Assembly (NCBI GenBank): GCA_026982315.1
Contig: JALSHI010000005.1
Location: 1 to 64,000, forward strand
Source: Lysobacterales bacterium
Lineage (GTDB): Bacteria; Pseudomonadota; Gammaproteobacteria; Xanthomonadales; Marinicellaceae
DNA length: 64,000 nucleotides
Direction of reading: 5' to 3'
Shown here: one piece after another, positions 6,762 through 32,404 of the stretch
Layout of the letters: each line of letters starts with the position of its first letter
Numbering within the stretch: position 1 is the first letter of the stretch
The notes under the pieces: generated by a model
What the model saw: the letters and a program-made list of their open reading frames with translations, nothing else
Told to the model about the DNA's origin: nothing
Database searches by the model: none
Program-made: the position numbers and the translations under genes

Positions 6762-6843
6762 ACGCAAACAGCCGTTGGCTTTACGGGGCGCGGCTGGATG
6801 TGAGTCTTTTTTGTTGTACAGAATAGCGAGTTTGTGTGATGGG

Positions 6844-7850: not shown

Positions 7851-8616
7851 GCAACTTGGCCAGTAAGCGCAGCATTTCCAGATACAGCCACACCAGCGTC
7901 ATCAACAAGGTGAACGCGCCAAACCACTCCATGTATTTGGGCGCACCCTGGGCACTGGCTTTTTCAATAAAATCAAAGTCCAGCGCCAGATTCATGGCCG
8001 CAATCACCACTACAAATAAACTGAAAGCGATGCCCAAGGGGCCGGATTCGTGAATCAATGGCACTTGCACGCCAAAAAAGCCCAGCACCATGGCCAGCAA
8101 GTAATACAGCATGATTCCGCCGGTGGCATAGAAGATGACTTTGCGGAAGGTGTCGTTGACTTTAATCAGGCCGGTTTTATAGGCCAGCAGCATGGCGCCC
8201 AAGGTGGCGAAGGTGGCGCCCACAGCGGATACCACAATACCCGGGAATTTTAATTCGAACATGGCCGAGATGGCACCCATGGCCAATCCTTCAAGCGCAG
8301 CATAAAGTGGTGCGGTGATAGGTGACCACTCGGGTTTGAAAATGGTGGCCAGTGCGACGATAAACCCACCAATCAGACCGACCCAGATTAACGGCGTGGT
8401 TGCCGCAGCGTCACCCATGGCAAAACCTGTCATGGCTTTTTGCCATGTCCAGGCGGCCGTGGCGATAGCGATAAGCAACAGCAGGCCGGTTTTGTTGACG
8501 GTGCCGTCAATGGTCATGACCTGGGAGCGGTCTACTACTAGCTCATCGCGCGGTCCCAAGCTGATTTGCGCGGTTTGCTCCAGGGTTTTCAAAGCAGGAT
8601 TGGATGAGCGAAACAT
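7840..8616 (-). CDS. BI-1/YccA family integral membrane protein
   Basis: Member of the Bax inhibitor-1/YccA (TMBIM) family, 258 residues with seven hydrophobic segments after a soluble N-terminus of about 50 residues. The family includes E. coli YccA, an inhibitor of the FtsH protease, and calcium-leak channels such as BsYetJ; I cannot tell which role applies. The MFRSSNPAL start and the IEKASAQGAPKYMEWFGAFTLLMTLVWLYLEMLRLL end are typical of the 12-segment-free bacterial subgroup with actinobacterial and proteobacterial members. I chose the ATG at 8616, which has a perfect AAGGAG seven bases upstream, over the longer frame from 8703. Confidence 0.88.
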   Translation of the reverse strand: MFRSSNPALKTLEQTAQISLGPRDELVVDRSQVMTIDGTVNKTGLLLLIAIATAAWTWQKAMTGFAMGDAAATTPLIWVGLIGGFIVALATIFKPEWSPITAPLYAALEGLAMGAISAMFELKFPGIVVSAVGATFATLGAMLLAYKTGLIKVNDTFRKVIFYATGGIMLYYLLAMVLGFFGVQVPLIHESGPLGIAFSLFVVVIAAMNLALDFDFIEKASAQGAPKYMEWFGAFTLLMTLVWLYLEMLRLLAKLRDE

Positions 8617-8718
8617 GTCATTCTCCTTAAAGTGTTTCGTTACTGTTGAGGTTAGGTTTATGGGGTTTGTGAGAAGCTCAATCAAGTATAACAGTTTTGG
8701 CAATAATCGTTATCGCCC

Positions 8719-11649
8719 TTAGTCAACAGGCGTCACTTTCAGTGCAGCCTGGGGCGGTTTTGTCTCGCTGAGCTGTGCTTTCGCCACAACAAGTCGGTTG
8801 GTGGGCAATTTTTCAGCCTCATGCAGATAGTCGCGAACTTGTTGGGCGCGTTTTTGCGCCAGTTGATAGAGAGTTTCGTCATTAATGACCACCGTCTGAA
8901 GCAAATGCCGCCAGGCTTGCATGGTGAGTTTGACCCGGTCAGCACCATATTGTTCCTGCAGATTTGCCCAGCGTGCGAACCCCAGACGAGAGATGTATAA
9001 GCGTTGCACACGGTCCTGAATGGTGTTTTTGACAAGCCATTTTTTCAGATTTTCTGCTGTCAGGTCGTGGGGCAGGTTCAAGTCGATTAACAGTTGCCTA
9101 AAGCGCAGCGCCTGACCATCCTGGGGGCGATTGGCCCAGCCGGTAATGTGCAAGCCAATAGTGGGGCGTAGGCGCAAGGCCGTGGCCAGCTTTTGTAATT
9201 TGGCCGCTTCTGTAGCGCGCAAGGCATCGCTGCCGGGTTCAAACAGAATGCGTTGCAGATTTTCCTTTCCCAGACCGACAAGGTCAGCCAGTATTCTGAA
9301 TGGCGAGGTGCCCACGCGGGAGATGGTTTTGACAAAGGCAGTCAGCAGCAGATGGCTAATACTGAAACGGGGGTCCTCAAGGTCGCCTGTCAGGGGAATG
9401 TGCAAGTGGACGATACCCTGGCTGTCTGCGAGCAGAGCCAGGGCCGTTTTTAACGGCAGGCTAAAGGCTGCCTTGGGGTTGTCGATTTTTTCCAGCTTTG
9501 GCTGAACAATGGTCAGGTCCAACTGGCCTTTGAGCCGCTGATGCCGGATGCGGTATTCCAGATCAATGTCGGCTCTGCCGCTGCGGGCCTCATAGCCAAA
9601 AAAATGGCGAATATAGGGATTCAGCTTGACCAGATCCAGATTGCGTAGATGACTTTTTGACTGAGGCACGGGTGGCTTGTTGTTCCAGGACAACAAGCCC
9701 TTGGCCAGCACATGGGTAAATTGTCCCAGCTGGGTTTCCAGCATAAATGCCGGAATACCATCCCGGGCTTTGGCTGCTGCCGGCGTCAGGTTGGCTGTCA
9801 GGTTTGTGACAGGCCAGTGAACAGGGGGAGTGACACGGGCATCGGTCAGGTTGATATGCGATTTTTCTACCTGCATCTGATTCCACTCCACGTTCCATGG
9901 GTGATGCGTGGCAGAAGGTTTGTCCCCCGGCGGGTTTTTGTTATCGAGATGCAGAATCCCGCTTTCCGGCCGCAACAGGTTTTTGAGGTTGTGGCTCATG
10001 GCATCCAACTGGATATCACCGCGCAAGCCGCGAATCAGCATGGAGCCCATGTGAATGCGACGCTGCGGGCTATCGATGCGGGAGGGATTGAGCTGCCACA
10101 TTTTCCAGCCGAGGATTTGGCGCCGGCTTTCATCATACAGGGAGAAATCGGCCAGGTCAGCTGCAAACGTTCCTTGGAAGCCGTCAGGTTGCCACTGCCA
10201 TTGTCCCTGACTGTTGAGCAGACCGGTCACTGCGCTGATTTTCAGTAAGCGGTTGAGCACAGGCAACCACGGCTGTAGCGCCATGTTCTGGATCTGGTAG
10301 GAAAGATTCCCCGAGCCCTTTGCCAGGCTGAGCTGTCCTGTTAGCCGGGTTTGACCGCCGGGCGTGGAATCGGACTCTCCCGGCAACTTCAAGTCGGCTG
10401 AAAAAGTCGCCGCCTTATCATTATTGGACAAGTTTTCCAGTTGTAGTTGCCTGATGCCGACCACTGGCTGGCCGAGATTTTTGGCAGTGGTGAGACGCAG
10501 CTGGCTGTTGTTCACGTGGAAACGGGCGATGCGCCAGGATAACTCAGGCTTCTGCTGCATATTTTGTGGCGCATTAGACACTTGAGCGGGTGCCGCAGTC
10601 GTGTTTTCCGGTTGAAAGATACTATCAATCGGAAGCTGAATGGTGGCGCGCTCAAGGGACACATCCCCGACTGCCAGCTGTTTGGTTGGCAGAGCGAAAG
10701 ACAAGTCACTGGCCTCCAGGCTCGGGGCGACAAGCGAGGGGCCGCCTTCATCCTCGCTGGCCTGAAAGGATGCAGCGGAAGGCCGGGCAATATGTAAGGG
10801 GCTCATGCGTATTTTCTTTGCCGTGAGTTGCAACTGGCGATTACTTGCGGCCCAGCGCACCGTGCCAGAGCCGGTCAGTCCGGCTTGCTTGATAGACACC
10901 CCTGGCATGGCCACTGACAGTTTTTTTAGCCACTCCGGCAGGTTTGCAATGCGGGTTTTCCAATGGGCATCCAGCACACTGTCTTGGTGAACATACTGCC
11001 CCTCTAATTGCAGGGAGTCCCCCTGCTGGGTCGTGATACTGGCGGTGAACTGCGATGGCTTCTGGCCTGTATTCAGGTTTTTGTGTTGATAGTCTATCTG
11101 CTGCAAGCTGAGCGAGAGTGGCTGTTCGCCATGGCTTTCCCAATCCAGCCGGCCGTCAGTGATATTGAACTGGCGAATGTGGAAATCCACCGGGTTTTCC
11201 AAAGCTGCGGATGTTTTGGGGGACGCTTGTACCTGGGGATAGACCCAGTCACCGTTTTTTTTGCTGAGCAGATGGACTTGGGGTTTGTTTATGGTCAGTT
11301 CATCCAGTGTCAGTCGTTGATGCCACAGTGAAGCAATGGCATTGAGATTGATGTGGATGTTATCGGCCTGAAACCACTGGTATCGGCTGGTGTTATCGGC
11401 GAGAATCGGTTTCTCAACATGCAGGCTGAAATCAAAGGGATTAAAACGAACGCTCTGTGCCGAAAAATGACTGGTGAGTGTATCGCCGGCCAGTGTTTCG
11501 ATATGTTGTTCAAGCAGCCGGGGAATCGCAAAATAGGCCACAACAGCATAGAGGGCGTAGAGGCCCAAAAGGCTGAAAAGCATGACTCTTAGCCGGGAGC
11601 GGCGAACGTGTCTGGTTGTGGCAGAGGGGCCAGGCATGGTGTGATTCAT
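8719..11649 (-). CDS. DUF748 / AsmA-like protein
   Basis: Large (976 residues) envelope protein anchored by one N-terminal membrane helix (about residues 20-45, VMLFSLLGLYALYAVVAYF) with the rest expected in the periplasm. It has the beta-rich repeats of AsmA/DUF748 proteins: LTLDELTINKPQVHL near residue 110, later DUF748 blocks, and LKGQLDLTIVQPKLEKI. The C-terminal part contains the RILFEPGSDALRATEAAKLQKLA segment, an OmpA-like stretch common in this family. Relatives in the AsmA clan are thought to bridge the two membranes and move lipids; this role is inferred from family knowledge. Normal length, no breaks. Confidence 0.85.
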   Translation of the reverse strand: MNHTMPGPSATTRHVRRSRLRVMLFSLLGLYALYAVVAYFAIPRLLEQHIETLAGDTLTSHFSAQSVRFNPFDFSLHVEKPILADNTSRYQWFQADNIHINLNAIASLWHQRLTLDELTINKPQVHLLSKKNGDWVYPQVQASPKTSAALENPVDFHIRQFNITDGRLDWESHGEQPLSLSLQQIDYQHKNLNTGQKPSQFTASITTQQGDSLQLEGQYVHQDSVLDAHWKTRIANLPEWLKKLSVAMPGVSIKQAGLTGSGTVRWAASNRQLQLTAKKIRMSPLHIARPSAASFQASEDEGGPSLVAPSLEASDLSFALPTKQLAVGDVSLERATIQLPIDSIFQPENTTAAPAQVSNAPQNMQQKPELSWRIARFHVNNSQLRLTTAKNLGQPVVGIRQLQLENLSNNDKAATFSADLKLPGESDSTPGGQTRLTGQLSLAKGSGNLSYQIQNMALQPWLPVLNRLLKISAVTGLLNSQGQWQWQPDGFQGTFAADLADFSLYDESRRQILGWKMWQLNPSRIDSPQRRIHMGSMLIRGLRGDIQLDAMSHNLKNLLRPESGILHLDNKNPPGDKPSATHHPWNVEWNQMQVEKSHINLTDARVTPPVHWPVTNLTANLTPAAAKARDGIPAFMLETQLGQFTHVLAKGLLSWNNKPPVPQSKSHLRNLDLVKLNPYIRHFFGYEARSGRADIDLEYRIRHQRLKGQLDLTIVQPKLEKIDNPKAAFSLPLKTALALLADSQGIVHLHIPLTGDLEDPRFSISHLLLTAFVKTISRVGTSPFRILADLVGLGKENLQRILFEPGSDALRATEAAKLQKLATALRLRPTIGLHITGWANRPQDGQALRFRQLLIDLNLPHDLTAENLKKWLVKNTIQDRVQRLYISRLGFARWANLQEQYGADRVKLTMQAWRHLLQTVVINDETLYQLAQKRAQQVRDYLHEAEKLPTNRLVVAKAQLSETKPPQAALKVTPVD

Positions 11650-11723: not shown

Positions 11724-14700
11724 TCAGTTTTTGACGTGTGACTGCTTCCTGTACCAGCCTGCCAGGCCAATAACCAATAGCGCCAGCATGGCCAATAAAG
11801 CCGGCTTCAGTGTCGGAATGGCCACCACCGGCGCATGACCCAGGCCAGCCGGGTCTGTAAAGTTGCCGTCAACCAGGCCATCGCTGTCACCAGCACCGCC
11901 ATCGGTAATGGTGTAAGTGACGATATTGGCGTTAACCATGGCCGGATACTGGCTCCAGTTGCCATCATACTTGAAGAAAGCGCGGCCAGGCGGTATCTCG
12001 GCCGGATAGGTAATGGTCACGTTCAGGCTGCTGCCGGGTGCGCATTGACTGGCAGTAAAATCGACCAGGCCGTAAGGAAACTGGTAATTTCCCGGTGGCT
12101 GAGAAGGTATGCTGGCCGCATCAATATATTGCACATTGGCAAAGCCGCACAGTGGGCCACCACCGGAGATGTCAACCGTGACGCTACCACTGCCATTGGG
12201 AGCAGGCGCAGTGTAAGATGTCACTGGCGCTTCGTTATCCAGGATGGTCACCGTATGGGTCAGGGTTGTTCCTGCATCGGCGTTAACCGGGTTGGACAAA
12301 GTCAGGCTAAAGGTTTCATCGCCCTCAAGCACGTTGTCATCCAGGATGGTCACGCTCACCGTCTGGCTGGTCGTGTTGGCGGGGATGGTGATAACCTGGT
12401 TAATGGCGGTATAGTCGCTGCCGGCTGTGGCGCTGCCATTGCTGGAGACCACTTGTACACTCACTGGTTGGTTAATGGGATTGCTCAAAGTCAGGGTGAT
12501 ATCGAGCGAACCGGCGGTTTCCAGAACGCTGGAGGCAGCCTGGGCGAATGTCACGGTGGGGATGGCCGTTGGGTTGAAGCCGGCAACCAGCGGGTCATGG
12601 TCTGAGGCCCGGTAAGCATCCGGCGAGTAAAAATCCGCAGGTTTGGCCGGGCCGCCATTGGGCAGATTTTCCTCGTTGTAATCGAAAAACGGCAGCTCAT
12701 CGGCATTGATATGCCACTCGGCCACAGAAGTGGCCTGAGGCAATGCGGTGGTGTTGGCGAGAATGTAATCGAGATAACCACGTTGACCGGCATACTGGTA
12801 AGACCAGGCCATGCCGGGGCCGATTTCCTGCGCTACCAGGTCGGTAAATCCGCCTGCGGCCAGCGCGGTAATCGGGTCTTCCATGGCGTAGGCATTGAGG
12901 TCGCCGACCACGACAGCGCCCACGGCGGGACCTGCGCCAGTGGGATCGCTGTTCAGCCAGTTGGCCATGGCCGTGGCTGCCTTGGTGCGGGTGTCATTGA
13001 ATGCGCCCTGGCCATCGCCCTGATCGGCATCAGCACCGGTGCCGGTACCGCCTTTGGATTTCAGATGAGCCACAGCCACAGTGATTTTCTGATTATTGGC
13101 ATTGCGGAAGGTTTGCGCCAGTACCGGTCGGTTCAACGAGTCATTGAACAGGGGATCCACCGATGAGTCGAGAATGGCGAAGCTGCCCTGCGGGCTAACC
13201 TGCGCGGGTTGATAAATCAGCGCAACCTTGATGACATCGCTGCCAATGGTGTCGGTATTGATGTAGTCCCAGGTACCGGCTCCGGCAGCGTTGTTGAGCG
13301 CATTGACCAGCATGTCCAGACTGGCGCTGGCATTATTTTCAATTTCCACCAGGCCCACAATATCGGCGCCCAGGGCATTAATGGCCGCCGTCAGTTTGTT
13401 TAACTGCCGGGTTTGCTCGCTAACTGAATCAGCACCCCGGCAACCGGCGTTGCCTGCCGGGCCACAAATGGGGACGCCGGTATCAATGGTACTGAAGAAA
13501 TTCAGCACGTTCATGGCAGCCACATGGATATCGCCAGCCGGTAGGGCCGGTGCAGCGCTTCGCGGGTTAGCGGTTTCGTCCCAGACCAGCGGGGCGGTGG
13601 GCTCAATTTTGTAGTCGCCAAAGGAGTAATGCATCACCCCTTCCAGGGCATTGATGACATAGCCTGTGCGAACCGGATTGTTGGCATTCAAAGGCGTGCT
13701 GTCATCGCGCCCGACGATAAAAGGCGTGCGGTAGGCGCCGTTACGGGCATCATCCACGATGAATTTGTTGTCGTCATTGGCCGCTTGCTGGGCGATGGCG
13801 GCGGGCCCGGGAGCGACAATGGCCGTTGGTGTGTACAAGGGGCCGTTGGAGACCACAAATTGACCATATTGGAGAATTTCGGTGGTATCTGTCACTGTGG
13901 CCGGGTGGGTCAGTACCACGCGCATGCCTTCAATGGTTTCCGGGTCAAAACCATTCAGGGGCAAAGTCAGCTGGGCCGGTGTAATGTCGGTGGATGAGCC
14001 ACTGCCGCACACCAGAATCTGGTTGATGTTCATCTCGGTCAGGCCGTTGAATTCGCTGACCTCACCCCGGATGCGTACCCGGTCAAATTCATTGACGTTG
14101 ACGGTGTTGCCGCCTTCAAACACAAAAATGCCTTCAGAGGTTTGCGGATTGCCGTCCTCGGTGGCGGTTCCCTCCTGCAGATAAAAGCCATTCAGGCTGG
14201 CATTGTTCTGAAAATCGCCCACCACATAGGCTTCCACGTCCACGGTGCTGCCCACCATAGGACTGCTTGCGCCGCTGCCTTGAATCTGGTTAATGGGTGT
14301 GGCTGACGCGCCGCAGGCAAACGGGATTTCTGTGGTAAAGCTGAATACATAGTCAGCCGGCAGGGTGATGCCCGGGTTGCCGCTGTCTGTCACCTGGTTT
14401 TGTTTAACAGTGACGGTGCATACAGTGCCAGCCGGCAAGGCGCTGGTGGGCGTCAGGGAGACGCTGGCGGTGTTATTGGCTGGCAGGCCTGTGAAGCTGA
14501 TGGGGGTGCCCGCCGGGCACTCGATGTCAACAGCCGAAGCGCTCCAGTTGGCCGGGCTGCTCACGGTGATATTCACGGGGCTGGTGACAGGCACGTTGAC
14601 CGCTCCGGCGGCCGGGTTGGTGGTGGTCACTGTCAGGCTGCCGGTGACATCGCCATTGACGCGCAAGAAATCAAAAGCCATTTCTTCGCTGGCGGCGTCC

Positions 14701-15302
14701 GCATAGACCAGTACCCGGATATCCAGCTGGTTGCCGGTGCCGGGGATGGCGGCACTGAAGTTCTGGAAAGTGGCCGTGAGCTGGGCGCCATCGGCCTCAT
14801 CGTTGCAGTCGGCATCAAAGCCCAGGGGTTCATTGAAGTCGTCGCCATTGTTAAAATAGGAAAAGCACAGGATTTTGCTCCAGCTACCGCCGTCAATGCG
14901 GGCTTCCACCTGCATATGGTCAGGCCGGTCATACTTGTTGGTGCGGGTGGCGGCGAATAGCCCTTCAAACTGCAGATTGCTGTAGCCGTTGATATTGATG
15001 CCGGAAATCATGACCCATTGTTCCTTGTTGCCATTGCCGCCGTTGTCGTCCGTGTCTTCCGCGGCCCAAAGCCATGTGTTATTTTGGCCGTTGTAAGCCG
15101 GTGATGTGGAAATATTGCTGCCATCGGTGCGGGTGAAATAGTCATTGGCCGAGGCATTGGGGTCAGATGGGGAAAATTCCACCGATACGGTATAGCGGCT
15201 GCCATTGCCATCGGTTTCAAAATCTTCCGTATGGATATTGACCGCGTAAGCAGAAAGGGGTAACAAAACAAGATTGGTGATGGCAAACAGACGATACAGC
15301 AT
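11724..15302 (-). CDS. ExeM/NucH-type extracellular endonuclease with IPTL-CTERM tail
   Basis: Secreted multi-domain nuclease of 1192 residues. Signal peptide 1-20 ending AYA; an unassigned beta-rich region about 21-220; an Ig-like Big_5 domain about 225-325; an OB-fold-like region about 330-435; an endonuclease/exonuclease/phosphatase domain about 590-910 with the motifs AMNVLNFF, LVEIEN (Glu653), GDLNAY (Asp801) and SDHDPL (His902); a Calx-beta domain about 915-1025; a choice-of-anchor-type domain 1028-1160; then IPTL (1162-1165), a hydrophobic helix and a basic end, the IPTL-CTERM sorting signal. It probably degrades extracellular DNA from an anchored or processed surface position. ATG at 15302 with GGAG upstream. 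The matching exosortase is not in the window. Confidence 0.92.
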   Translation of the reverse strand: MLYRLFAITNLVLLPLSAYAVNIHTEDFETDGNGSRYTVSVEFSPSDPNASANDYFTRTDGSNISTSPAYNGQNNTWLWAAEDTDDNGGNGNKEQWVMISGININGYSNLQFEGLFAATRTNKYDRPDHMQVEARIDGGSWSKILCFSYFNNGDDFNEPLGFDADCNDEADGAQLTATFQNFSAAIPGTGNQLDIRVLVYADAASEEMAFDFLRVNGDVTGSLTVTTTNPAAGAVNVPVTSPVNITVSSPANWSASAVDIECPAGTPISFTGLPANNTASVSLTPTSALPAGTVCTVTVKQNQVTDSGNPGITLPADYVFSFTTEIPFACGASATPINQIQGSGASSPMVGSTVDVEAYVVGDFQNNASLNGFYLQEGTATEDGNPQTSEGIFVFEGGNTVNVNEFDRVRIRGEVSEFNGLTEMNINQILVCGSGSSTDITPAQLTLPLNGFDPETIEGMRVVLTHPATVTDTTEILQYGQFVVSNGPLYTPTAIVAPGPAAIAQQAANDDNKFIVDDARNGAYRTPFIVGRDDSTPLNANNPVRTGYVINALEGVMHYSFGDYKIEPTAPLVWDETANPRSAAPALPAGDIHVAAMNVLNFFSTIDTGVPICGPAGNAGCRGADSVSEQTRQLNKLTAAINALGADIVGLVEIENNASASLDMLVNALNNAAGAGTWDYINTDTIGSDVIKVALIYQPAQVSPQGSFAILDSSVDPLFNDSLNRPVLAQTFRNANNQKITVAVAHLKSKGGTGTGADADQGDGQGAFNDTRTKAATAMANWLNSDPTGAGPAVGAVVVGDLNAYAMEDPITALAAGGFTDLVAQEIGPGMAWSYQYAGQRGYLDYILANTTALPQATSVAEWHINADELPFFDYNEENLPNGGPAKPADFYSPDAYRASDHDPLVAGFNPTAIPTVTFAQAASSVLETAGSLDITLTLSNPINQPVSVQVVSSNGSATAGSDYTAINQVITIPANTTSQTVSVTILDDNVLEGDETFSLTLSNPVNADAGTTLTHTVTILDNEAPVTSYTAPAPNGSGSVTVDISGGGPLCGFANVQYIDAASIPSQPPGNYQFPYGLVDFTASQCAPGSSLNVTITYPAEIPPGRAFFKYDGNWSQYPAMVNANIVTYTITDGGAGDSDGLVDGNFTDPAGLGHAPVVAIPTLKPALLAMLALLVIGLAGWYRKQSHVKN

Positions 15303-21278: not shown

Positions 21279-23258
21279 TCAATCCACTAAAAAAAGCCGT
21301 GAATGATGCACGGGTTGCCACTGACCATTTTCTGTTTGCTCCCGCATCAGTATTTGATAGGCCCGGGTGCCACTCGGTAGGTGGGTTTTAAAGCCTACCT
21401 CGGGCATAAACGGGTCATTCAATGTGGGAAATAACCGGGCCACGCCGATATTGATTTCCTTGGGATTCGCCATGGCTTTTTTTTGCCATTTTCCATGTGC
21501 GCCCTGATAGCGGATAAACAATTGACGAGCAGTAGGGTGAGTGCCGGGCATATGATGTCGAACCACCCATCCGCTGACATCAACACCATTGGCTGTGGAT
21601 TGGTGCTCGGCATAAAAAATGGCGGGTAACTGGCATTCGGCACCACCAGGACTCCATTTAAAGAGCGCAAATTTCTTAAAGCCCTGGGCGGTGATAACAT
21701 CCTTTAGCCAACGAATGCTGCCAGGCATGTGGCATAAACTTTGGTAATAGGCATTCTTATCCTGGAGTTTAAGCGTCGAATCTTCCACCACCAGCAAGGT
21801 CGGACCAGGTGGCGGGCTGTCGGGGCTGTGGAGCAAGTCCATGAGCTGTAATTGCGCTTGTCGGCCATGTTTGACATTTTTGACATGGGGCAGGGCCAGA
21901 ATATCATCCCGGTTCAGTTCAAACCCCAGTTCGGCGGCGGTCATGAAATAGTCCGCCATCAAATGGGTTAGTCCCTGTGATTCAGCGGTGGATTGCGCTT
22001 CCATGGCCATGGTGCGCCAGCCGCTGGAATTGTCCAGTATGCGGGCACTGCGCCAATCGTGGGCTGTCATGGGTTTGGATAACCACAGCACAGTGGCCAG
22101 GCTTAATGTCAATCCGGAAATCAGGGCGGTCGGTATCAGTCGGGATTTTCTTCTTGTCTGCCGTGCTTGCAGGCATGTATGGCACCACCATACTGGTGCC
22201 AGCGCAAGAACGGGTGGATAAGAGGCCAGCATCCAGTGTACGGTGGTGCGGAGACCGTCGGCAAACAAGCCGGTTATGGCGTAAAAAAGCCAGTGAAAAA
22301 GGGCAGTCAGACCAACCCAGCGCCATAATCGACGGCACCACAAGGGGGGTAAGGACGTTTTTGGCAGGTTTTTTTGTCGTTGTATCAGGGGGCGCAAATA
22401 AAGCGCCCATAACCCAAAAACAAGGGGAGAAATCAGCACTATCTGAGCCACAATCAACGCCATGTTTTCCGGCTGGAAACGCCATGGATGACGGCGGCCA
22501 AATTGAAAGGTGAATAAGGCCCAATCGTTGTTCGCATTAAATACCAGCACGGGTAACAACCCGAACAGGGCCGCAGGCGCCAGCCAACGCAGTAATGGTC
22601 TCCAGAATGACCAACGGGGCCAGACAATCAACAGTGACAAGGCGGCAAAAAACAGCCAGATCCACATGCGCACATGAACATTAACGGCTACGGCTAGGGT
22701 CACGGCCAACAGTATCCACCAGCGCCGTTGTCCGGTTCGGATTGCGGCAAACAGCCCGTTGATAAGTAACAACGTAAAAAACAGCAGCCACACATCCGGC
22801 AACATGAGAATGCCAATTAACTGCAACAGCGGAATGGCCATAATCAGCAGCCCGGCCAGGCTGGCCATACCAAGCCGGGAGCAGTATGCCGTCGATGAAC
22901 AGGCAGACTGGTCAGGCGGGTTTGTGCCGGTGGGTATGCAATCACTGCTTTGCCAGGCCAGCCAGAAACCCAGCCAGGGTACGCACAAACCGGCCAGCCA
23001 CGATAACCAGCGCAGCCCCAAGTAACTGTGGCCGCCTATTGTTTCAGCCAGCGCAGCTTGCCAGGCGGTCCACCCTGGTACATCTGTATAGGACCAGGCC
23101 AGGTGGCGGCTTTCCAGCCAGTAAAAGGCCTCATCGCCAAACAGAGATATGTGGCTGATGGCCATGCCGCTTAATGTGGCAAAAGTGATAAATACCGCCA
23201 GAAAAGCCAGAAACAGTCCACGGCCACCGGCAGTACGAAAGGCGGTGGACTCAGGCAT
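21279..23258 (-). CDS. ArnT/PMT-like membrane glycosyltransferase (GT39/GT83 type)
   Basis: Polytopic membrane protein of 659 residues with about 11 hydrophobic segments followed by a periplasmic C-terminal domain of about 260 residues. The first loop contains GDEAFYWLESRHLAWSYTDVPG, the acidic catalytic motif of dolichyl- or undecaprenyl-phosphate-sugar transferases of the PMT/ArnT fold. These enzymes move a sugar from a polyprenyl phosphate to lipid A, protein or glycan on the periplasmic face. The acceptor is unknown. It lies 20 bases downstream of the lytic transglycosylase gene and could be in one transcript with it. Confidence 0.85.
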   Translation of the reverse strand: MPESTAFRTAGGRGLFLAFLAVFITFATLSGMAISHISLFGDEAFYWLESRHLAWSYTDVPGWTAWQAALAETIGGHSYLGLRWLSWLAGLCVPWLGFWLAWQSSDCIPTGTNPPDQSACSSTAYCSRLGMASLAGLLIMAIPLLQLIGILMLPDVWLLFFTLLLINGLFAAIRTGQRRWWILLAVTLAVAVNVHVRMWIWLFFAALSLLIVWPRWSFWRPLLRWLAPAALFGLLPVLVFNANNDWALFTFQFGRRHPWRFQPENMALIVAQIVLISPLVFGLWALYLRPLIQRQKNLPKTSLPPLWCRRLWRWVGLTALFHWLFYAITGLFADGLRTTVHWMLASYPPVLALAPVWWCHTCLQARQTRRKSRLIPTALISGLTLSLATVLWLSKPMTAHDWRSARILDNSSGWRTMAMEAQSTAESQGLTHLMADYFMTAAELGFELNRDDILALPHVKNVKHGRQAQLQLMDLLHSPDSPPPGPTLLVVEDSTLKLQDKNAYYQSLCHMPGSIRWLKDVITAQGFKKFALFKWSPGGAECQLPAIFYAEHQSTANGVDVSGWVVRHHMPGTHPTARQLFIRYQGAHGKWQKKAMANPKEINIGVARLFPTLNDPFMPEVGFKTHLPSGTRAYQILMREQTENGQWQPVHHSRLFLVD

Positions 23259-25283: not shown

Positions 25284-25395
25284 ATTGCCGGGAAGTGTCT
25301 TTTGCGGGCGTGGAGTTGTCAGGCCTTATCCCCTGGGTTAGTGTTTGACTTCTCATTATTTCGTTACATTTTTGACCAACCACAAGGCCACACGC

Positions 25396-26499
25396 ATGGA
25401 TCTCACCCATTTTCTGAAAATCATGAAAGAGCGCAATGCTTCGGATATGTTTCTGAGCACAGGCGCGCCCATCAATATCAAGGTTGAAGGGATTCTGGAA
25501 CCGCTGGGCCGTACTGGCTTGCCACCGGGGCTGATTAAAAAAATCGCTTATTCCATTATGGATGAAGGGCAGGTACCGGAGTTTGAAAAGAATCTGGAGC
25601 TGAACTTGGCCATTTCCCTGCCTAAGGTGGGGCGTTTCCGGGTGAATGTCTTCAAACAGCGCGGCGAAGTGGGTATGGTGATTCGATCCATCAGCAGCAC
25701 CATCCCTTCCATTGAGGAGTTGAATCTGCCTGTGAACTTGAAGGACCTTATTCTGGAAAAACGGGGGTTGATTCTGGTGGTGGGCGGTACAGGTTCCGGC
25801 AAGTCCACCACGATGGCATCGATGATCGATCACCGCAATGCCACCATGAGCGGGCACATTTTGACCATTGAAGACCCGCTGGAATATATTCACAATCACA
25901 AAAAATCCATTGTCAATCAACGCGAAATCGGCATTGATACCCATGATTATCACAAGGCGTTGAAAAGCGCCTTGCGCGAGGCGCCGGATGTGATTCTGAT
26001 TGGCGAGGTGAATGATCGGGAGACCATGGAGTCGGCGATTTCTTTTGCTGAGACCGGCCATTTGTGTCTGGCCACCTTGCACTCCAACAATGCCGACCAG
26101 GCCATTGAGCGGGTGTTGAACTTTTTTCCCAGCGATTCCCATAAGAATGTGTTGATGAATCTGGCGTTGAATACCAAGGCCATTATTTCTCAAAGACTGG
26201 TTCGGGATGTCAATGGCAAACGCCGGCCGGCGGTGGAGATTCTGATTAATACGCCCATGATTCGCGAATTGATCCGCCGGGGAGAGATCAATGAGCTCAA
26301 AGAGGCCATGGACAAAAGTCTGGACGATGGTATGCAAACATTCGACCAGGCGTTATACGACATGTACAAGAACGGCATTATCACCCTGGAAGAAGCCCTG
26401 GAGAACTCCGATTCCCCGCAAGGCTTGCAGGTAAAAATCAACTTGTCGCAAGGGGCTGGCGGCAGGGAAAATGCTTTTGACGAAGGCGGTTTTTTCTGA
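25396..26499 (+). CDS. pilU: PilT/PilU family type IV pilus retraction ATPase
   Basis: Hexameric ATPase that powers type IV pilus retraction for twitching, uptake or attachment. 367 residues. Walker A GGTGSGKST at 130-138, the Asp-box IEDPLEYIHNHKKSIVNQREIGIDT about 158-182, Walker B LIGEVND (201-207) and the His-box FAETGHLCLATLHSNNADQ from 217. The RET that follows Walker B and the extended C-terminus are PilU-like; PilT is usually about 345 residues. Where PilT and PilU normally read GEIRD or GEIRT, this protein has an Asn (206). No pilT is in the window although the two are commonly adjacent. Start ATG 25396 preferred over the longer frame from 25345. Confidence 0.85.
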   Translation: MDLTHFLKIMKERNASDMFLSTGAPINIKVEGILEPLGRTGLPPGLIKKIAYSIMDEGQVPEFEKNLELNLAISLPKVGRFRVNVFKQRGEVGMVIRSISSTIPSIEELNLPVNLKDLILEKRGLILVVGGTGSGKSTTMASMIDHRNATMSGHILTIEDPLEYIHNHKKSIVNQREIGIDTHDYHKALKSALREAPDVILIGEVNDRETMESAISFAETGHLCLATLHSNNADQAIERVLNFFPSDSHKNVLMNLALNTKAIISQRLVRDVNGKRRPAVEILINTPMIRELIRRGEINELKEAMDKSLDDGMQTFDQALYDMYKNGIITLEEALENSDSPQGLQVKINLSQGAGGRENAFDEGGFF

Positions 26500-26544: not shown

Positions 26545-26573
26545 CACGGGATGAGGCGTTGCCTCGCCCTACA
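26545..26573. repeat. Imperfect palindrome, REP-like
   Basis: GGGATGAGGC, a GTT loop, then GCCTCGCCCT gives a stem of about nine pairs including two GU/GT wobbles and one A/C mismatch. It sits in the short convergent gap between pilU and the sulfotransferase, and its right arm contains the sulfotransferase stop codon. Size and placement resemble intergenic REP-type repeats; whether it recurs in the genome cannot be judged from one window, where I saw no second copy. Confidence 0.4.
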
Positions 26574-27498
26574 TTTCATCCAGCAAGCGCTGCCAGCGGC
26601 GGTTGTTTTTCCGGAACCGTTCTAGTGAGTGAGGAGGCAGATACTTGTCAATCAAAGCCGACAGCCGCTGGCAGGCCCATTCGTGCAAGGCGATATCCGC
26701 TTGATTCATGTTCAAGATACACTGACGCTGCGATTGGTTGAGCGCTTCGGGAGTAGCGATTTTCTTCGATGTGTTTAACGGCTGGTAGAAAATATCGGTA
26801 AGTCCCAGTTGTTTTTTTACCACCAATAGCGACTCATCAAACCGTTCAGTGGTGCCCACAAAAGAAAAGGCTGTATCCAGCACCTGTTTGGCTTGCTGGA
26901 ACAAAGTGGCATCCTCAGGGGTGGTTTGCTGGTGTAAATGGCCCGTCAGGCGTCGGCACTGGCCATTGCGTATTTCCACCAGATCTGGTTGCTGCAGAAA
27001 CTCGTCCAAATCCATGGATTGAATCCGGGCGTGCAAAAGATGCTCGGGGCGGGTTTTCAGGTAATTAAACCAGGACACCACGCGGGCCAGGGGGTGACGA
27101 ATGAAAGTCATGTGGAACAAAGGGGCGTCAGCCAACAGCTGATAAACCAGACCATGCAGCGGATGATGCCCCATGACCAGACGCGGATGCCGGCCGGTGG
27201 CTCCGTAGCTGCATGGGCAGTGGTTAAGTACAGGAGCATTAATGCGCAGAATATCCTTGAGCGGCACGTTGCGGGCCAAAATGTTTTCCAGGGTGGTGCC
27301 GCCGGTTTTTGGCACGTGACAAAATACCCACTGTGCTGCCTGGGTAAAGGCGTAGCCGCTCGTACTGGTTATGACATTTTTTTGCAAGAAAGCCAGGTTA
27401 CGCGTAAAGTTTTCAGCATCGTCGCGCTGCTGCCAGCGTTGGTAGACGTTAAAAGCATCCGGAACCGGCGCGCAGGAAGGGGCTGGAAATTGTTTCAT
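26569..27498 (-). CDS. Sulfotransferase family protein (Sulfotransfer_2-like)
   Basis: Predicted carbohydrate sulfotransferase, 309 residues. It has the PAPS phosphosulfate-binding loop CHVPKTGGTTLENIL (63-69 core) and the 3'-phosphate-binding segment FIRHPLARVVSWFNYL (134-142), both in the order of heparan-sulfate 2-O-sulfotransferase-like proteins. No signal peptide or membrane helix is evident, so it may work on a cytoplasmic lipid-linked or nucleotide-linked intermediate. The start is uncertain: ATG 27498 is used here, while a GTG at 27537 would add 13 residues, and neither has a clear ribosome-binding site. It is convergent with pilU and divergent from the GT4 gene. Confidence 0.82.
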   Translation of the reverse strand: MKQFPAPSCAPVPDAFNVYQRWQQRDDAENFTRNLAFLQKNVITSTSGYAFTQAAQWVFCHVPKTGGTTLENILARNVPLKDILRINAPVLNHCPCSYGATGRHPRLVMGHHPLHGLVYQLLADAPLFHMTFIRHPLARVVSWFNYLKTRPEHLLHARIQSMDLDEFLQQPDLVEIRNGQCRRLTGHLHQQTTPEDATLFQQAKQVLDTAFSFVGTTERFDESLLVVKKQLGLTDIFYQPLNTSKKIATPEALNQSQRQCILNMNQADIALHEWACQRLSALIDKYLPPHSLERFRKNNRRWQRLLDEM

Positions 27499-27644
27499 AA
27501 AGACGTACAGCGGTGAGAATTGCCGATAAAATAGCACAGCTTATCTGGCCATTGGCTGATTATTTCTTCTTCCTGCGTCAATGGCTTCAATATGCCCATC
27601 GTTATTGCTCGACCACCCATGACAAACAGTGCGGTAGCTGCCAT

Positions 27645-28997
27645 ATGACACAATCTGAGCGTTCTTCGCCGAATTCATCCGGGGATGTTTCACGGCGCAT
27701 TCTCGTGGATGCATTTAATCTGGCCTTACAGAAAGGCTCCGGTATCAAAACCTACGGGATGACTTTGCTGGAGGCTTATCATCGTCTGGGGTATTCGGTT
27801 GATGTGCTGACCGCCAACCCCTATGTGAGCGGGAAATCGCCGCTGCTGGATGAGGTGAAATTGTTTGAACAGTATCATAAATCCACAGGTTGGCTGAACA
27901 GGCCGCTGCTGCGCGCCGTTCGGGATAATATACGGATAGGCGTAAGACTGCTGAAAAAACCGCCTGCGGTGACAGTGACCCCCCACGTGACAGTACCGAA
28001 TCCCGGTGATTTTCTATCTCGCAAAAAAGGCGTACTGTATGAAAGTCTGGTCAATGTGCCTGATGTGTTTCACTCGGCCAATCGCTTGTTTGCCTTGACG
28101 GGTCAAGCGGTGCGGCTCAAACTGCCCACGCCGCCGGATATCTGGCACCGAACCACCTTGTTACCGGTGCACGTGGCCGGGGCGAAAAACATTACCACCA
28201 TTCATGATCTGATTCCCCTGCGCGTGCCTTTTGCCACCCTGGATGACAAAAAAGTGTTTCATCATCTTGTCCAGTGGAATATCAGGCACTCAGATGCCAT
28301 CTTGACGGTTTCTGAGCACACCAAAAAGGATTTGATGGCGCTTTACCAGGTGCCGGAGGATAAAATCCACGTTACCTACCAAACCTGCCGTTTCAATGGG
28401 AATCTGGACAGGATGAGCGCCGAAGAGGATGACCAGATTTTTTTGCAAGCCAAGCGCCTGCAAAAAGATCGTTACGTTCTTTTTCTGGGTAATATCGAGC
28501 CGAAAAAAAACATCAAGGCACTGATTCGGGCCATGGCCTTCATTGACTCAGGCTACAAACTGGCCATCGTTGGCCGTAAAGCCTGGTTGTGGCAGGATCA
28601 GCTCAAGGAACTGGATGCCTACCTGGGGAAATACCGTTACGAGTTTCTGGACTATCTGCCCCAAGAAGAACTTTCCATTTTATTGCGTAATGCCACCTGC
28701 CTGGTTTTTCCCTCCATTTATGAGGGATTTGGTTTGCCGGTGCTGGAAGCCATGAATCATGGTTGCCCGGTGATCTGCTCATCGGTTTCTTCCTTGCCAG
28801 AGGTGGGGGGGAACGCCGTGGAGTATGTTGACCCGTATCAGCCGCAGGAAATCCGGCAGGCTTTGGAGAGCCTGATTCGCTCGCCAGAAAAACGCGCCAC
28901 CTTGCGGGCATTGGGATATAAGCAGGCTCAGCTTTTTTCGCCGGAAAACTATGATCGCCGGTTGCAGGCGGCCTATGAAAAGATTCTTTCCGGTTGA
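27645..28997 (+). CDS. GT4 family glycosyltransferase
   Basis: Retaining nucleotide-sugar-dependent transferase of GT-B fold, about 450 residues. The N-terminal half carries RRILVDAFNLALQKGSGIKTYGMTLLEAY; the C-terminal half has FLGNIEPKKNIKALIRAM and SIYEGFGLPVLEAMNHGCPVICSSVSSLPEVGG, the EX7E motif of the GT4 family that binds the nucleotide sugar. No membrane segment. I used the ATG at 27645 because it fits the family N-terminus, though no good Shine-Dalgarno is visible; the frame is open from 27513. It is followed 13 bases later by a second sulfotransferase, so glycan synthesis and sulfation are likely coupled. Confidence 0.88.
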   Translation: MTQSERSSPNSSGDVSRRILVDAFNLALQKGSGIKTYGMTLLEAYHRLGYSVDVLTANPYVSGKSPLLDEVKLFEQYHKSTGWLNRPLLRAVRDNIRIGVRLLKKPPAVTVTPHVTVPNPGDFLSRKKGVLYESLVNVPDVFHSANRLFALTGQAVRLKLPTPPDIWHRTTLLPVHVAGAKNITTIHDLIPLRVPFATLDDKKVFHHLVQWNIRHSDAILTVSEHTKKDLMALYQVPEDKIHVTYQTCRFNGNLDRMSAEEDDQIFLQAKRLQKDRYVLFLGNIEPKKNIKALIRAMAFIDSGYKLAIVGRKAWLWQDQLKELDAYLGKYRYEFLDYLPQEELSILLRNATCLVFPSIYEGFGLPVLEAMNHGCPVICSSVSSLPEVGGNAVEYVDPYQPQEIRQALESLIRSPEKRATLRALGYKQAQLFSPENYDRRLQAAYEKILSG

Positions 28998-29010
28998 CCA
29001 TTGAATCATT

Positions 29011-30477
29011 ATGCAGATACGGTCATTCCTCGCTGAGATCAGACACTGGTTGGACACGGGGCGTCCATCACGCAACAGGCAGACCGAGCCAGTTCAGAGC
29101 GCACATGCCCTGGCCATGTTGTTGCCAGACAATACCAGGGCCTGGCCGGATATGGCAAGGGATGCGTCTCGGCCCTTTTACTTTATTCACATTCCCAAAA
29201 CAGCCGGTACCAGTCTGATTGCCATTCTGGATCGCCTGTTCCATCAGACACACATTTTTCCGGCGCAACTGTGGCGTGAATTAAGACCTGAAATCGTGCA
29301 ACAGGCCAGCCGGTTTTCCTTTTTTCGAGGGCATTTTGGCGGCGGTGGCCTCAAGGTTTTTTCTGGCTCTTCGCCCCAGTTATTGACCATGTTGCGTGAC
29401 CCGCTGCCCTTGTCTGTATCTACCTACCACTTTATTCGACGGGAAAAAAATACCCGGGTCCATCAACTGGTTAAGGATTTGGGCATGACGCTTGAGGCGT
29501 TTGCCGCTCACCCTCGCACCAGGATTTTGCTGAATGATCGGCAAGTGCGCTACCTGTCTTTTGATATTCATGATGATCCCGATGCCCAGGATATTTTTCT
29601 GTCTTCAACCAGTGAGCAGGTGGTGCGCCAGTGGTTGCCGGACAAGGCGCCAGAGTTGACTGCCGAACAGCGTTACCAGCGCGCCTTGTCAACCCTGAAA
29701 ACCTGCGAGTGGTTCGGTATCCAGGAGCGATTTGATGACTCCCTGCGTCTGTTCGCCTGGCAATTTGGCTTGCCGCCTGTGGGTGTGAGCGAGCGCCTTA
29801 ATGCCCGACGGAAAGCCAGCAGGGTCAGTGAACAGGCGCGGTTGTCCATTGAACGCGCTAACAGTTGGGATCGCCGGTTGTATGCCTGGGCCGTTGATGA
29901 GTTTGAGCGCCGTTTTGATCGCATGAAAACAGCGCTGGAAAATGTTCGCCAGCGTAAAACCGACACAATCGATGATTTGTTGCGTCATGCTTACAGGCAG
30001 CGCGTCGAGCAATACCTGCGGCGATTGCCGGAGTCAGCGCTGCCTGATCGTTGGCGTTACCACTTTGACCAACCATTGATTGGCTGTCACTGGCATCGGC
30101 GTGAGCTGGCCTTGCCGGAAAAACACTGGTTTCGCTGGACGGGGCCGCAAAAAACAGCGGATCTCTGGCTGGTGTTGAAACCGGGCCGGTATCAACTGAG
30201 CCTGGAGGTGATTAATGCCATTAGCCCAGCTGATATTGAGCAGTTGCGGCTCCAGGCTAATGAAGTGGAGTTATCCACCAGGGTGCAAGGTGATGCCGGC
30301 TCGGTGGTCAGAACAATACAGGCGCAGCTTTCTGCCAGGGTTTTTGACGGCAGTGCAGTATTGCGCTTGCAAATTCGGGTGCCACGGGTGCCAACACATG
30401 CCGAGGCCTTTGGCAGTGATGATCAGCGGCGGGTAGGCGTGGCGGTGCGTTCCATCACCATCGAGCCGATAGAGTAA
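29011..30477 (+). CDS. Sulfotransferase with C-terminal beta-rich extension
   Basis: Protein of 488 residues. The N-terminal two thirds is a sulfotransferase: PAPS loop FIHIPKTAGTSL (62-68 core) and 3'-phosphate region MLRDPLPLSVSTYHFIRR (128-145). Residues from about 365 to 488 are a separate, mostly beta domain (FRWTGPQKTADLWLVLKPGRYQL and RVFDGSAVLRLQIRVPR) resembling glycan-cluster accessory or carbohydrate-binding domains; I do not recognise its family. A helical region about 290-345 joins the two. It lies 13 bases after the GT4 gene, on the same strand. The two sulfotransferases in this cluster share only the core motifs and are not recent duplicates. Confidence 0.82.
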   Translation: MQIRSFLAEIRHWLDTGRPSRNRQTEPVQSAHALAMLLPDNTRAWPDMARDASRPFYFIHIPKTAGTSLIAILDRLFHQTHIFPAQLWRELRPEIVQQASRFSFFRGHFGGGGLKVFSGSSPQLLTMLRDPLPLSVSTYHFIRREKNTRVHQLVKDLGMTLEAFAAHPRTRILLNDRQVRYLSFDIHDDPDAQDIFLSSTSEQVVRQWLPDKAPELTAEQRYQRALSTLKTCEWFGIQERFDDSLRLFAWQFGLPPVGVSERLNARRKASRVSEQARLSIERANSWDRRLYAWAVDEFERRFDRMKTALENVRQRKTDTIDDLLRHAYRQRVEQYLRRLPESALPDRWRYHFDQPLIGCHWHRRELALPEKHWFRWTGPQKTADLWLVLKPGRYQLSLEVINAISPADIEQLRLQANEVELSTRVQGDAGSVVRTIQAQLSARVFDGSAVLRLQIRVPRVPTHAEAFGSDDQRRVGVAVRSITIEPIE

Positions 30478-30486
30478 TGCTATAAT
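30478..30486 (+). promoter_or_regulatory. Extended -10 promoter before the 2OG oxygenase
   Basis: TGC followed directly by a perfect TATAAT (30481-30486), 40 bases before the start codon of the oxygenase gene. This is an extended -10 element and needs no good -35; none is visible. The oxygenase may thus be transcribed separately as well as with the genes before it. Confidence 0.5.
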
Positions 30487-30525
30487 TATCTGTCATTTCG
30501 ACGCCATTAACCGCCAAACAAAGCC

Positions 30526-31587
30526 ATGGATCTTACCAAATACCTTTCTCCCCACGTTATTCAATCTGCAGATGCCATTGGTCGTCAGTTTGAGCAGGCC
30601 AAGCCGTTCCGTCATGTGGTGATTGATGACTTTTTTCAACCGGAATTTTGCGAGTCCTTGTTGCAGGAGTTTCCGGCCTTTGATGAAAAGCTGGCCACCG
30701 ATGAAAACGGTAATATTGGCCGCAAGGCGGTTCATCAGGGCGTGGCGCATCTGGGCGAACATTACCGTCGCCTCGATGCCTTGGTAAAGAGCCAGTCCTT
30801 CCGGGACATGGTTACACGGCTGACCGGAATCGAAGATTTGCATTACGACCCGCATTATTTTGGCGGCGGCACCCATAATAATCTCGATGGGCAGGATCTG
30901 GACCCGCATGTGGATTTTACCCATCACCCCATCACCGGATTGCATCGACGCATGAATTTGATCGTGTATTTAAACAAGGAATGGGAGAAAGAATGGGGCG
31001 GCAATATCGAGCTGCACAAGGACCCTTACCGGCCGCCGGAAGAAGATGAGATTGTGAGTGTCGAGCCCCTGTTTAATCGCGCGGTTATTTTTGAGACCAA
31101 TGATATTTCCTGGCATGGCTTCCCCCGCATTAATTTGCCGGAAGACAAGAAACACCTCAGCCGTAAATCCTTTGCGTTGTATTACTACACCCCCACACGG
31201 CCTGAAAAAATCAGGCCGCATTCCACGATTTATGTGGAGCGCCATTTGCCAGCCCATATTCGCGAGGGGCATACACTCACAAGCGAGGATGAGGCATTGA
31301 TTAAAACCCTGCTGGCACGGCGCGACCAACACCTGAAACGGCTGTATGCCACCATTACTGATTTAACGGATGAAAACCAGCGTCTGCGGGCTGAAGCCCA
31401 GATAAGGCAATTGTCCCAGCGACACACAGGTAAAGCGCCGGCGGTACATGAGACGCAGATACAAGCGGCTCTGGCGCAGATGGGTCAAGACAAACAGGCA
31501 TTGTTGGCACGAATTCAAGCCCTTGAAAACTCCACCTCCTGGAGAGTGACCGCACCCTTGCGCGCCTTGCGCCGGTGGTTTCAGTAG
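30526..31587 (+). CDS. 2-oxoglutarate/Fe(II)-dependent oxygenase, glycan-cluster type
   Basis: Non-heme iron oxygenase of 353 residues. The double-stranded beta-helix contains the iron ligands His128-x-Asp130 (DPHVDF) and His197 (SWHGFP), with Arg213 in the SRKSFALYYY strand as the likely 2-oxoglutarate anchor. After a charged coiled coil (about 270-330) the protein ends with a NSTSWRVTAPLRALRRWF tail, a motif seen at the ends of proteins in polysaccharide biosynthesis clusters. It probably hydroxylates a sugar or lipid-linked intermediate made by its neighbours; substrate unknown. It has its own candidate promoter. Confidence 0.85.
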   Translation: MDLTKYLSPHVIQSADAIGRQFEQAKPFRHVVIDDFFQPEFCESLLQEFPAFDEKLATDENGNIGRKAVHQGVAHLGEHYRRLDALVKSQSFRDMVTRLTGIEDLHYDPHYFGGGTHNNLDGQDLDPHVDFTHHPITGLHRRMNLIVYLNKEWEKEWGGNIELHKDPYRPPEEDEIVSVEPLFNRAVIFETNDISWHGFPRINLPEDKKHLSRKSFALYYYTPTRPEKIRPHSTIYVERHLPAHIREGHTLTSEDEALIKTLLARRDQHLKRLYATITDLTDENQRLRAEAQIRQLSQRHTGKAPAVHETQIQAALAQMGQDKQALLARIQALENSTSWRVTAPLRALRRWFQ

Positions 31588-31606: not shown

Positions 31607-32404
31607 CTAGACATCCTCCAGAGAATCTGCCAGACGCACAAGCAAGTGGCGCAGCATATGGCGACTTTCGCTGAAGCCATGGTGGAGTTTTAAGCGGTTT
31701 TCGTCCAGATAGACCCGCTGGCTGATTTCCATTTGCAAGGCATGGACGCCGCGATCCGGGTGACCATAGTGGCGGGTAATGTGGCCGCCGACAAAACGGC
31801 CATTGACAGCCACCGAACGCGGCCGATATTGCCGCAATGACTGTTCCGCCAGTTTTTGTAATGGCTCGGCACACGCGTGGCCATGGTGGCTGCCCAGATT
31901 GAAATCCGGCAGGCGGCCGCTGAACAACGCCGGTACGCGGGAGCGAATGCTGTGAGCATCCCATAACAGCACCTGTTGGTGCCGTTGGCGCAGCCGTTGT
32001 AGCTCGCTTTCCAGCGCTTGGTGATAAGGACGCCAGTAGCGCGCCAGCCTTTGGTTCAGAGATTGGGTATCTGGCTTCTGCCCGGGCAAATAGAGCGGCT
32101 GACCCGAAAAATCGGTCAGCGGGCATACCCCGGGCGTGCGTACACCCGGATAAAGCGGGCTATTGTCTGCTGGCCGGTTCAAGTCCACGACATAACGGGA
32201 AACAGTGGCGCGGATCACGCTGAAACCCATATCGACAGCCCAATCGTATAGTCGGGTGACATGCCAGTCGCGGTCGGGGGTATGGTGAAACTCTGGCCGT
32301 AAGCGGGCAAGAATATCCCCGGGTATCCAGCCTCCATCGTGGGGGATGCTAATTAGCACCGGCCGGCGCCCATGATGAAGGTGAAATAATGGCCGGCCAG
32401 TCAT
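31607..32404 (-). CDS. hutG: N-formylglutamate deformylase
   Basis: Hydrolyses N-formylglutamate to glutamate and formate, last step of the five-step histidine pathway. 265 residues with the family pattern: VLISIPHDGGWIP near the N-terminus, DRDWHVTRLYDWA, VVDLNRPADN, LLWDAHSIRSRVPALFSGRLPDFNLG with the metal-binding region, and LQMEISQRVYLDE. Its start overlaps the hutH stop by four bases, so the genes are coupled. This variant implies a HutF-type formiminoglutamate deiminase elsewhere. It is convergent with the oxygenase gene. Confidence 0.92.
   Translation of the reverse strand: MTGRPLFHLHHGRRPVLISIPHDGGWIPGDILARLRPEFHHTPDRDWHVTRLYDWAVDMGFSVIRATVSRYVVDLNRPADNSPLYPGVRTPGVCPLTDFSGQPLYLPGQKPDTQSLNQRLARYWRPYHQALESELQRLRQRHQQVLLWDAHSIRSRVPALFSGRLPDFNLGSHHGHACAEPLQKLAEQSLRQYRPRSVAVNGRFVGGHITRHYGHPDRGVHALQMEISQRVYLDENRLKLHHGFSESRHMLRHLLVRLADSLEDV

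Follow-up and report, generated by a model that had tools for sequence, protein, structure and literature searches.

Three neighbouring genes in a 64,000-nucleotide stretch of DNA from a Lysobacterales bacterium of the family Marinicellaceae (GenBank assembly GCA_026982315.1, contig JALSHI010000005.1, positions 1 to 64,000; hereafter the window) are probably part of a Marinicellaceae pathway for a sulfated surface polysaccharide, which would most likely be the glycan portion of the lipopolysaccharide (LPS). They encode a sulfotransferase (ST1), a GT4-family glycosyltransferase (GT4) and a second, two-domain sulfotransferase (ST2), and we refer to them as the module. The sulfotransferases and the glycosyltransferase are inherited together, with the ST1-GT4-ST2 order conserved in relatives, whereas the 2-oxoglutarate (2OG)-Fe(II) oxygenase gene that follows them is a genus-specific neighbour and not core to the set.

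All four open reading frames (ORFs) that an earlier reading of the sequence (the original prediction) had placed at window positions 26569-31587 were found there, with ST1 on the minus strand, divergent from GT4, ST2 and the oxygenase gene, all on the plus strand. Orthologue alignments favour starts at 27501 for ST1 and 27645 for GT4; the first in-frame GTG codons were not taken as starts because they would make the two genes overlap. The gap between GT4 and ST2 is 13 bp, and that between ST2 and the oxygenase gene 48 bp. The features of the locus are:

26569..27501, minus strand: ST1, carbohydrate sulfotransferase of the type using 3′-phosphoadenosine 5′-phosphosulfate (PAPS) (Sulfotransfer_2 / Gal-3-O-sulfotransferase type), ~310 aa; Pfam above cut-off and relatives' profile
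27292..27312, minus strand: ST1 5′-phosphosulfate-binding loop PKTGGTT, near-invariant in the ST1 alignment
27166..27171, minus strand: ST1 GH with candidate catalytic base H124, aligned with the GH of heparan sulfate (HS) 2-O-sulfotransferase
27502..27644, no strand: ST1/GT4 divergent intergenic region, likely promoter region (promoter activity presumed), bounded by starts from orthologue alignments
27645..28997, plus strand: GT4-family glycosyltransferase, module core; Pfam, one orthologue each in 26 of 61 genomes, counting its own
29011..30477, plus strand: ST2, two-domain sulfotransferase, 488 aa; AlphaFold model, orthologues in 25 of 61 genomes
29161..29964, plus strand: ST2 sulfotransferase domain, residues ~51-318; fold and profile matches to HS 6-O-sulfotransferase
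29194-29214, plus strand: ST2 PKTAGTS loop, conserved in ST2 alignments
29326-29334, plus strand: ST2 RGH, within the sulfotransferase domain
30043..30474, plus strand: ST2 C-terminal jelly-roll domain, residues ~345-488, with a fold like carbohydrate-binding modules (CBM) CBM35/CBM6/CBM27 and conserved WHRRE...FRWTGP; fold only, and conservation
30526..31587, plus strand: 2OG-Fe(II) oxygenase with SWRVTAPLR tail, genus-specific neighbour; Pfam, orthologues unlinked in other genera
31537-31563, plus strand: SWRVTAPLR tail of the oxygenase, conserved in its orthologues
25345..26499, plus strand: pilU-like T2SSE ATPase, left-hand boundary conserved in the family; Pfam, relatives' loci
31607..32404, minus strand: hutG, right boundary in the window's genus (nth, endonuclease III, in most Marinicella); Pfam, relatives' loci

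Both sulfotransferases group with the heparan sulfate O-sulfotransferases and are carbohydrate-type enzymes, for which transfer of sulfate from PAPS to a sugar is predicted. For ST1, Pfam matches to the Gal-3-O sulfotransferase family (7e-8) and to Sulfotransfer_2 (1e-7) were both above cut-off, and a profile of its relatives reached HS 6-O-sulfotransferase at 8e-14 and HS 2-O-sulfotransferase at 2e-12. ST2 has no family match in Pfam or NCBIfam, so its earlier naming had depended on the loop alone; a profile built from 24 of its relatives, however, matched HS 6-O-sulfotransferase at 8.6e-20 and HS 2-O-sulfotransferase at 1e-8. Its AlphaFold model is of good quality (mean predicted local distance difference test score, pLDDT, 86.7; predicted template modelling score, pTM, 0.85), and residues ~51-318 align with HS 6-O-sulfotransferase (PDB 5t03) at Z 18.0, with 236 aligned residues, a root-mean-square deviation of 4.3 and 24% identity, followed by HS 2-O-sulfotransferase (PDB 4ndz) at Z 16.4. 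The fold is assigned to ST2 through this model and to ST1 through the profile only. Two sulfotransferases with the predicted loops do flank GT4, and both belong to the sulfotransferase clan, ST1 by Pfam and ST2 by fold and profile.

The residues expected of such enzymes are also in place. The 5′-phosphosulfate loop PKTxxT/S is present and conserved in both proteins, and the Arg and Ser of the 3′-phosphate site (R147/S155 in ST1, R129/S137 in ST2) are invariant and align with those of HS 6-O- and 2-O-sulfotransferase. The equally invariant GH-motif His (H124 in ST1, H108 in ST2), a candidate catalytic base, aligns with the GH of HS 2-O-sulfotransferase. Residues ~345-488 of ST2 form a jelly roll in the model, with Z scores of 8.6-9.9 to CBM35, CBM6 and CBM27; because ligand-binding domains of Eph receptors score ~9 too, carbohydrate binding is not claimed from the fold alone. 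All four proteins lack a membrane-spanning stretch, as would suit enzymes that draw on the PAPS of the cytosol.

The window comes from contig C5 in a draft genome of 2.24 Mb (99% complete), which we compared within a set of 61 related genomes, the window's own (G000) included; G000, G001 and G002 represent the window's genus. GT4 matches Glycos_transf_1 at 1e-31, and an orthologue of it occurs in 26 of the 61, one copy each, at 47-71% identity in the relatives. ST2 is found in 25 of these same 26 genomes; none of the remaining genomes has it at E below 1e-20, and the sole GT4 genome without it is G002, whose contig ends inside GT4. A third sulfotransferase, of Sulfotransfer_3 type, is encoded in 24 of the 26. 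Fisher p-values for co-occurrence with GT4 were 3e-16 (ST2) and 5e-15 (third sulfotransferase), although the genomes are related and the trials thus not independent. GT4 and ST2 are adjacent in every examined locus with a long enough contig, and ST1 stands at 61% identity in G001 and 64% in G002, and at 41-44% beside GT4 in Marinicella. The third sulfotransferase gene usually lies next to the set in Marinicella, with ST1, GT4, ST2 and third sulfotransferase in one row in G012, G018 and G022, and is on contig C32 in the window's genome. The genome of Marinicella litoralis KMM 3900 (L060) has an ST1-type gene, an ATP-binding cassette (ABC) pair, GT4, ST2 and the third sulfotransferase in one row. 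Recent acquisition by horizontal transfer is not favoured: G+C content, overall and at third codon positions, matches that of neighbouring genes for all four genes, and the pilU boundary is conserved in the family. The left edge (pilU, terB, mltD) is common to the window's genus and several Marinicella.

PAPS synthesis, a point raised in the original prediction, is encoded in the window's genome as a fused ATP sulfurylase-adenosine 5′-phosphosulfate (APS) kinase of 570 aa on contig C31, outside the cluster of the gene group. Above cut-off, the same genome has eight matches to Sulfotransfer_3 and two to Sulfotransfer_2. PAPS_reduct, the family that includes CysH and CysD, had no match in G000 and was matched in all 14 control genomes; it was also unmatched in G001, G002 and the module-bearing Marinicella genomes G008, G012, G018, G022 and G031. 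Judging by this gene absence in draft genomes, PAPS is probably made for sulfotransfer alone, and its use for sulfation only, without sulfate reduction, would be a bacterial metabolic pattern worth establishing.

Starting from the family assignments, the predicted ST2 fold, the co-inheritance and the presence of PAPS synthesis without a reductase match, we infer a pathway in which the acceptor, the positions sulfated, the order of steps, the role of the jelly roll, the use of the exporter and the link to LPS are all putative. The fused ATP sulfurylase-APS kinase would make PAPS in the cytosol, and on the cytosolic side GT4 would attach a sugar to a glycan linked to a carrier. Sugar hydroxyls would then receive sulfate from PAPS through ST1 and through ST2, whose CBM-like domain perhaps keeps it on the chain, and the third sulfotransferase (next door in Marinicella, on another contig here) may add further sulfate. 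The product would leave through a Wzm/Wzt-type ABC exporter, such a pair being present in ten Marinicella sulfotransferase clusters and on another contig here. LpxC is encoded within the window, so lipid A is probably made, and a paper by Kokoulin et al. 2020 (Carbohydr. Res. 490:107961; title cited in PMC8707391) reports, according to its title, sulfated and phosphorylated polysaccharides from the LPS of M. litoralis KMM 3900T.

With regard to export, an orthologous ABC-2 membrane protein (ABC2_membrane) is present in ten Marinicella genomes, and an ABC ATPase and sulfotransferases lie beside it in those examined. Five cyanobacterial loci have an ABC-2 membrane protein, an ABC ATPase and an ST2-like protein in that order, four of them with a GT4-type gene nearby. 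On contig C50 of the window's own genome, a Wzm/Wzt-type pair, in which Wzt_C is matched weakly, lies with two GT2 genes and a gene for a methyltransferase. Several points weigh against a sulfated surface polysaccharide as the product. The window's genus has no ABC membrane protein of the Marinicella type, and the exporter on C50 may serve a different glycan. A Pfam scan of the window's proteins found no exporter, polymerase, sugar-nucleotide or PAPS gene, leaving the export link indirect, and likewise no Wzx, Wzy or co-polymerase among them. The M. litoralis chemistry is taken from the title of a paper, the tie between gene and function is predicted from sequence and modelled structure, and the co-occurrence p-value, drawn from related genomes, does not stand for independent trials.

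Two Marinicella loci (L022, L033) have, beside their ABC and sulfotransferase genes, genes for a Glyphos_transf protein, a nucleotidyltransferase, a class-I glutamine amidotransferase and a YidC-like protein. We take this gene set to resemble a phosphoramidate-type glycan modification, which may relate to the phosphorylated polysaccharide in Marinicellaceae.

The original prediction had all four genes acting in one pathway on one glycan: addition of a sugar, sulfation at two positions and hydroxylation by the 2OG oxygenase. The oxygenase itself is as described: it matches 2OG-FeII_Oxy_3 at 2e-16, its iron triad (H128-x-D130, H197) and 2-oxoglutarate Arg (R213) are invariant in ten sequences, and its SWRVTAPLR tail is real and conserved (as SWRxTxPLR) in orthologues at 50-62% identity in many relatives. 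GT4, ST2 and the oxygenase gene are also tightly spaced on one strand, ST2-2OG-hutG is retained in G001 (where ST1-GT4 is on another contig), and two Nitrospira-type loci (L082, L083) have 2OG-like genes in the vicinity of sulfotransferases and an ABC exporter. Across the 61 genomes, however, 11 have both GT4 and the oxygenase, 15 GT4 only, 17 the oxygenase only and 18 neither (p = 0.80), so that orthologues are found in many genomes without the module and missing from many with it. In other genera they show no linkage to the locus, lying ~720 kb away in G004 and on other contigs elsewhere, and in Marinicella the orthologue adjoins upp and a GDSL lipase gene. Because its orthologues lie elsewhere and do not track GT4, the oxygenase is not core: conservation of the genes together stands for ST1, GT4 and ST2, but the oxygenase is not supported as a functional member, and a single four-gene pathway is unlikely. 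In the window's genus the enzyme's substrate may be the module's glycan or something else.

Small acceptors were weighed as well. Sulfated small glycolipids include rhizobial Nod factors and mycobacterial sulfolipids, and the single glycosyltransferase gene at the window locus, with no polymerase nearby, would suit a module that sulfates a small glycolipid or the lipid A/core instead of a polymer. The ABC exporter pair at the relatives' and cyanobacterial loci, the CBM-like fold on ST2 and the sulfated LPS polysaccharide reported in title for M. litoralis all point the other way, and we regard a small acceptor as improbable. Acceptors in the sulfotransferase clan are very varied, and the two enzymes might in principle act on proteins or small metabolites, with GT4 an incidental neighbour; but their closest folds and profiles are HS 6-O- and 2-O-sulfotransferases and their co-inheritance with one specific GT4 is near-perfect, which makes this highly implausible. 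A bolder extension of the sulfated-polysaccharide pathway, which we hold to be a long shot, is a marine small-genome lineage that lacks sulfate reduction and has kept sulfate activation only for surface-glycan sulfation, with a CBM-fused, HS-sulfotransferase-like enzyme working on the growing polymer and an oxygenase added in one genus, giving a sulfated and oxidised glycan not seen elsewhere.

Some further observations concern the oxygenase. The enzyme, with its SWRxTxPLR tail, is conserved across much of the order (the window gene and L161, L163 and L164). A profile search with it gave weak, partial matches only, to OGFOD1 and prolyl hydroxylases, and a structure model built from three sequences was poor (pLDDT 54.8) and was left unused. 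No relative was found in the viral contigs scanned with the protein, and no paper in the open-access literature searched ties a 2OG oxygenase to a sulfated-polysaccharide cluster.

Elsewhere in the window's genome, a locus on contig C25 (L151, G000:C25:138000-157000) has at 5949-10044 a metallophosphatase, an ST1-type sulfotransferase and a 372-aa protein without a Pfam match. A similar trio lies close to GT4 in several Marinicella (L037, for example), which suggests a pathway divided among loci in the window's genus. A second sulfation locus on contig C30 (L152, G000:C30:8000-19033) encodes a sulfatase, two Sulfotransfer_3 proteins and a pair of GT2-like proteins, of which one has a weak Pfam match and the other none; genes related to these adjoin an ST2 paralogue in Marinicella marina (L062). 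Contig C17 (L153) encodes at 1075-2760 a GT2-sulfotransferase fusion of 561 aa (Glycos_transf_2 and Sulfotransfer_1). A second surface-polysaccharide cluster was looked for in the window and not found, the remainder being housekeeping genes (rpoA, leuS, hut, dcw, lpxC). Two other window genes, both on the minus strand, encode a 1192-aa protein with Big_5, Exo_endo_phos and Calx-beta domains (11724-15302), probably a large secreted nuclease or phosphodiesterase, and a 659-aa protein adjoining mltD that has no Pfam match at E below 1e-5 (21279-23258).

The module is conserved in much of Marinicellaceae, and it may provide the genetic basis of the sulfated LPS polysaccharide that was reported from M. 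litoralis, a cultured strain in which its function is directly testable. ST2 points to a two-domain family of bacterial sulfotransferases with the fold of heparan 6-O-sulfotransferase; the members tested from Marinicellaceae escape Pfam, and this family should be useful for finding sulfated bacterial polysaccharides and the enzymes that sulfate them.

The original prediction could match the genes to no named system. This holds for the exact gene set, which is not described in the open-access literature searched, but clusters for sulfated polysaccharides have been published from marine gammaproteobacteria and cyanobacteria, and a sulfated LPS polysaccharide, by title, from M. litoralis KMM 3900. 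The type of system is thus known, while the locus, its co-inheritance and the two-domain sulfotransferase are undescribed in that literature, in which we found no paper joining Marinicella with sulfotransferases and no gene assignment for the M. litoralis polysaccharide. As to the enzymes, ST1 and ST2 share the fold, PAPS loop and GH motif of HS 6-O- and 2-O-sulfotransferases (PDB 5t03, 4ndz), but these are animal Golgi enzymes with 15-24% identity, and nothing in the matched structures corresponds to the jelly roll at the C-terminus of ST2.

Among bacterial clusters, those for the sulfated capsules of Cobetia marina KMM 1449 (PMC11766843) and Vibrio sp. KMM 8419 (PMC11641403) likewise come from marine gammaproteobacteria and combine glycosyltransferases, sulfotransferases, PAPS synthesis and ABC export. 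They hold 70-80 genes, with kps, cysNDC and nucleotide-sugar genes together, whereas here a module of 3-4 genes stands with the rest dispersed, and the likeness drawn is one of gene content. The synechan (xss) cluster of Synechocystis has Wzx/Wzy and eight glycosyltransferases, and ABC-type sulfotransferase clusters are noted in other cyanobacteria (PMC8205485); sulfotransferases stand beside glycosyltransferases and exporters in these too. The cyanobacterial loci found here have the order ABC-ABC-ST2 with a GT4-type gene nearby, but identity to their ST2 relatives is only 25-31%. When plasmids were searched with ST1 and ST2, distant sulfotransferases alone came up and no synechan locus. Set against the Cobetia, Vibrio and cyanobacterial ABC-type clusters, the co-inherited sulfotransferase and glycosyltransferase are present here, and the in-cluster exporter and in-cluster PAPS genes are absent. 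The Pontiella cluster for a sulfated glycosaminoglycan-like exopolymer (PMC7356697) also has a sulfotransferase inside a GT4/GT2 cluster of a marine bacterium, but differs in phylum and gene set and makes a mostly N-sulfated polymer. The closest comparison is M. litoralis KMM 3900T, of the same family, whose genome has the ST1-type gene, GT4, ST2, third sulfotransferase and ABC pair; what is reported for it is, going by the title, chemistry only, and the window's genus lacks a linked ABC pair and a linked third sulfotransferase. Given that reported polysaccharide and the gene row in the M. litoralis genome, we read the window's genes as a reduced version of a locus whose probable product is a sulfated LPS polysaccharide of the M. 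litoralis type.

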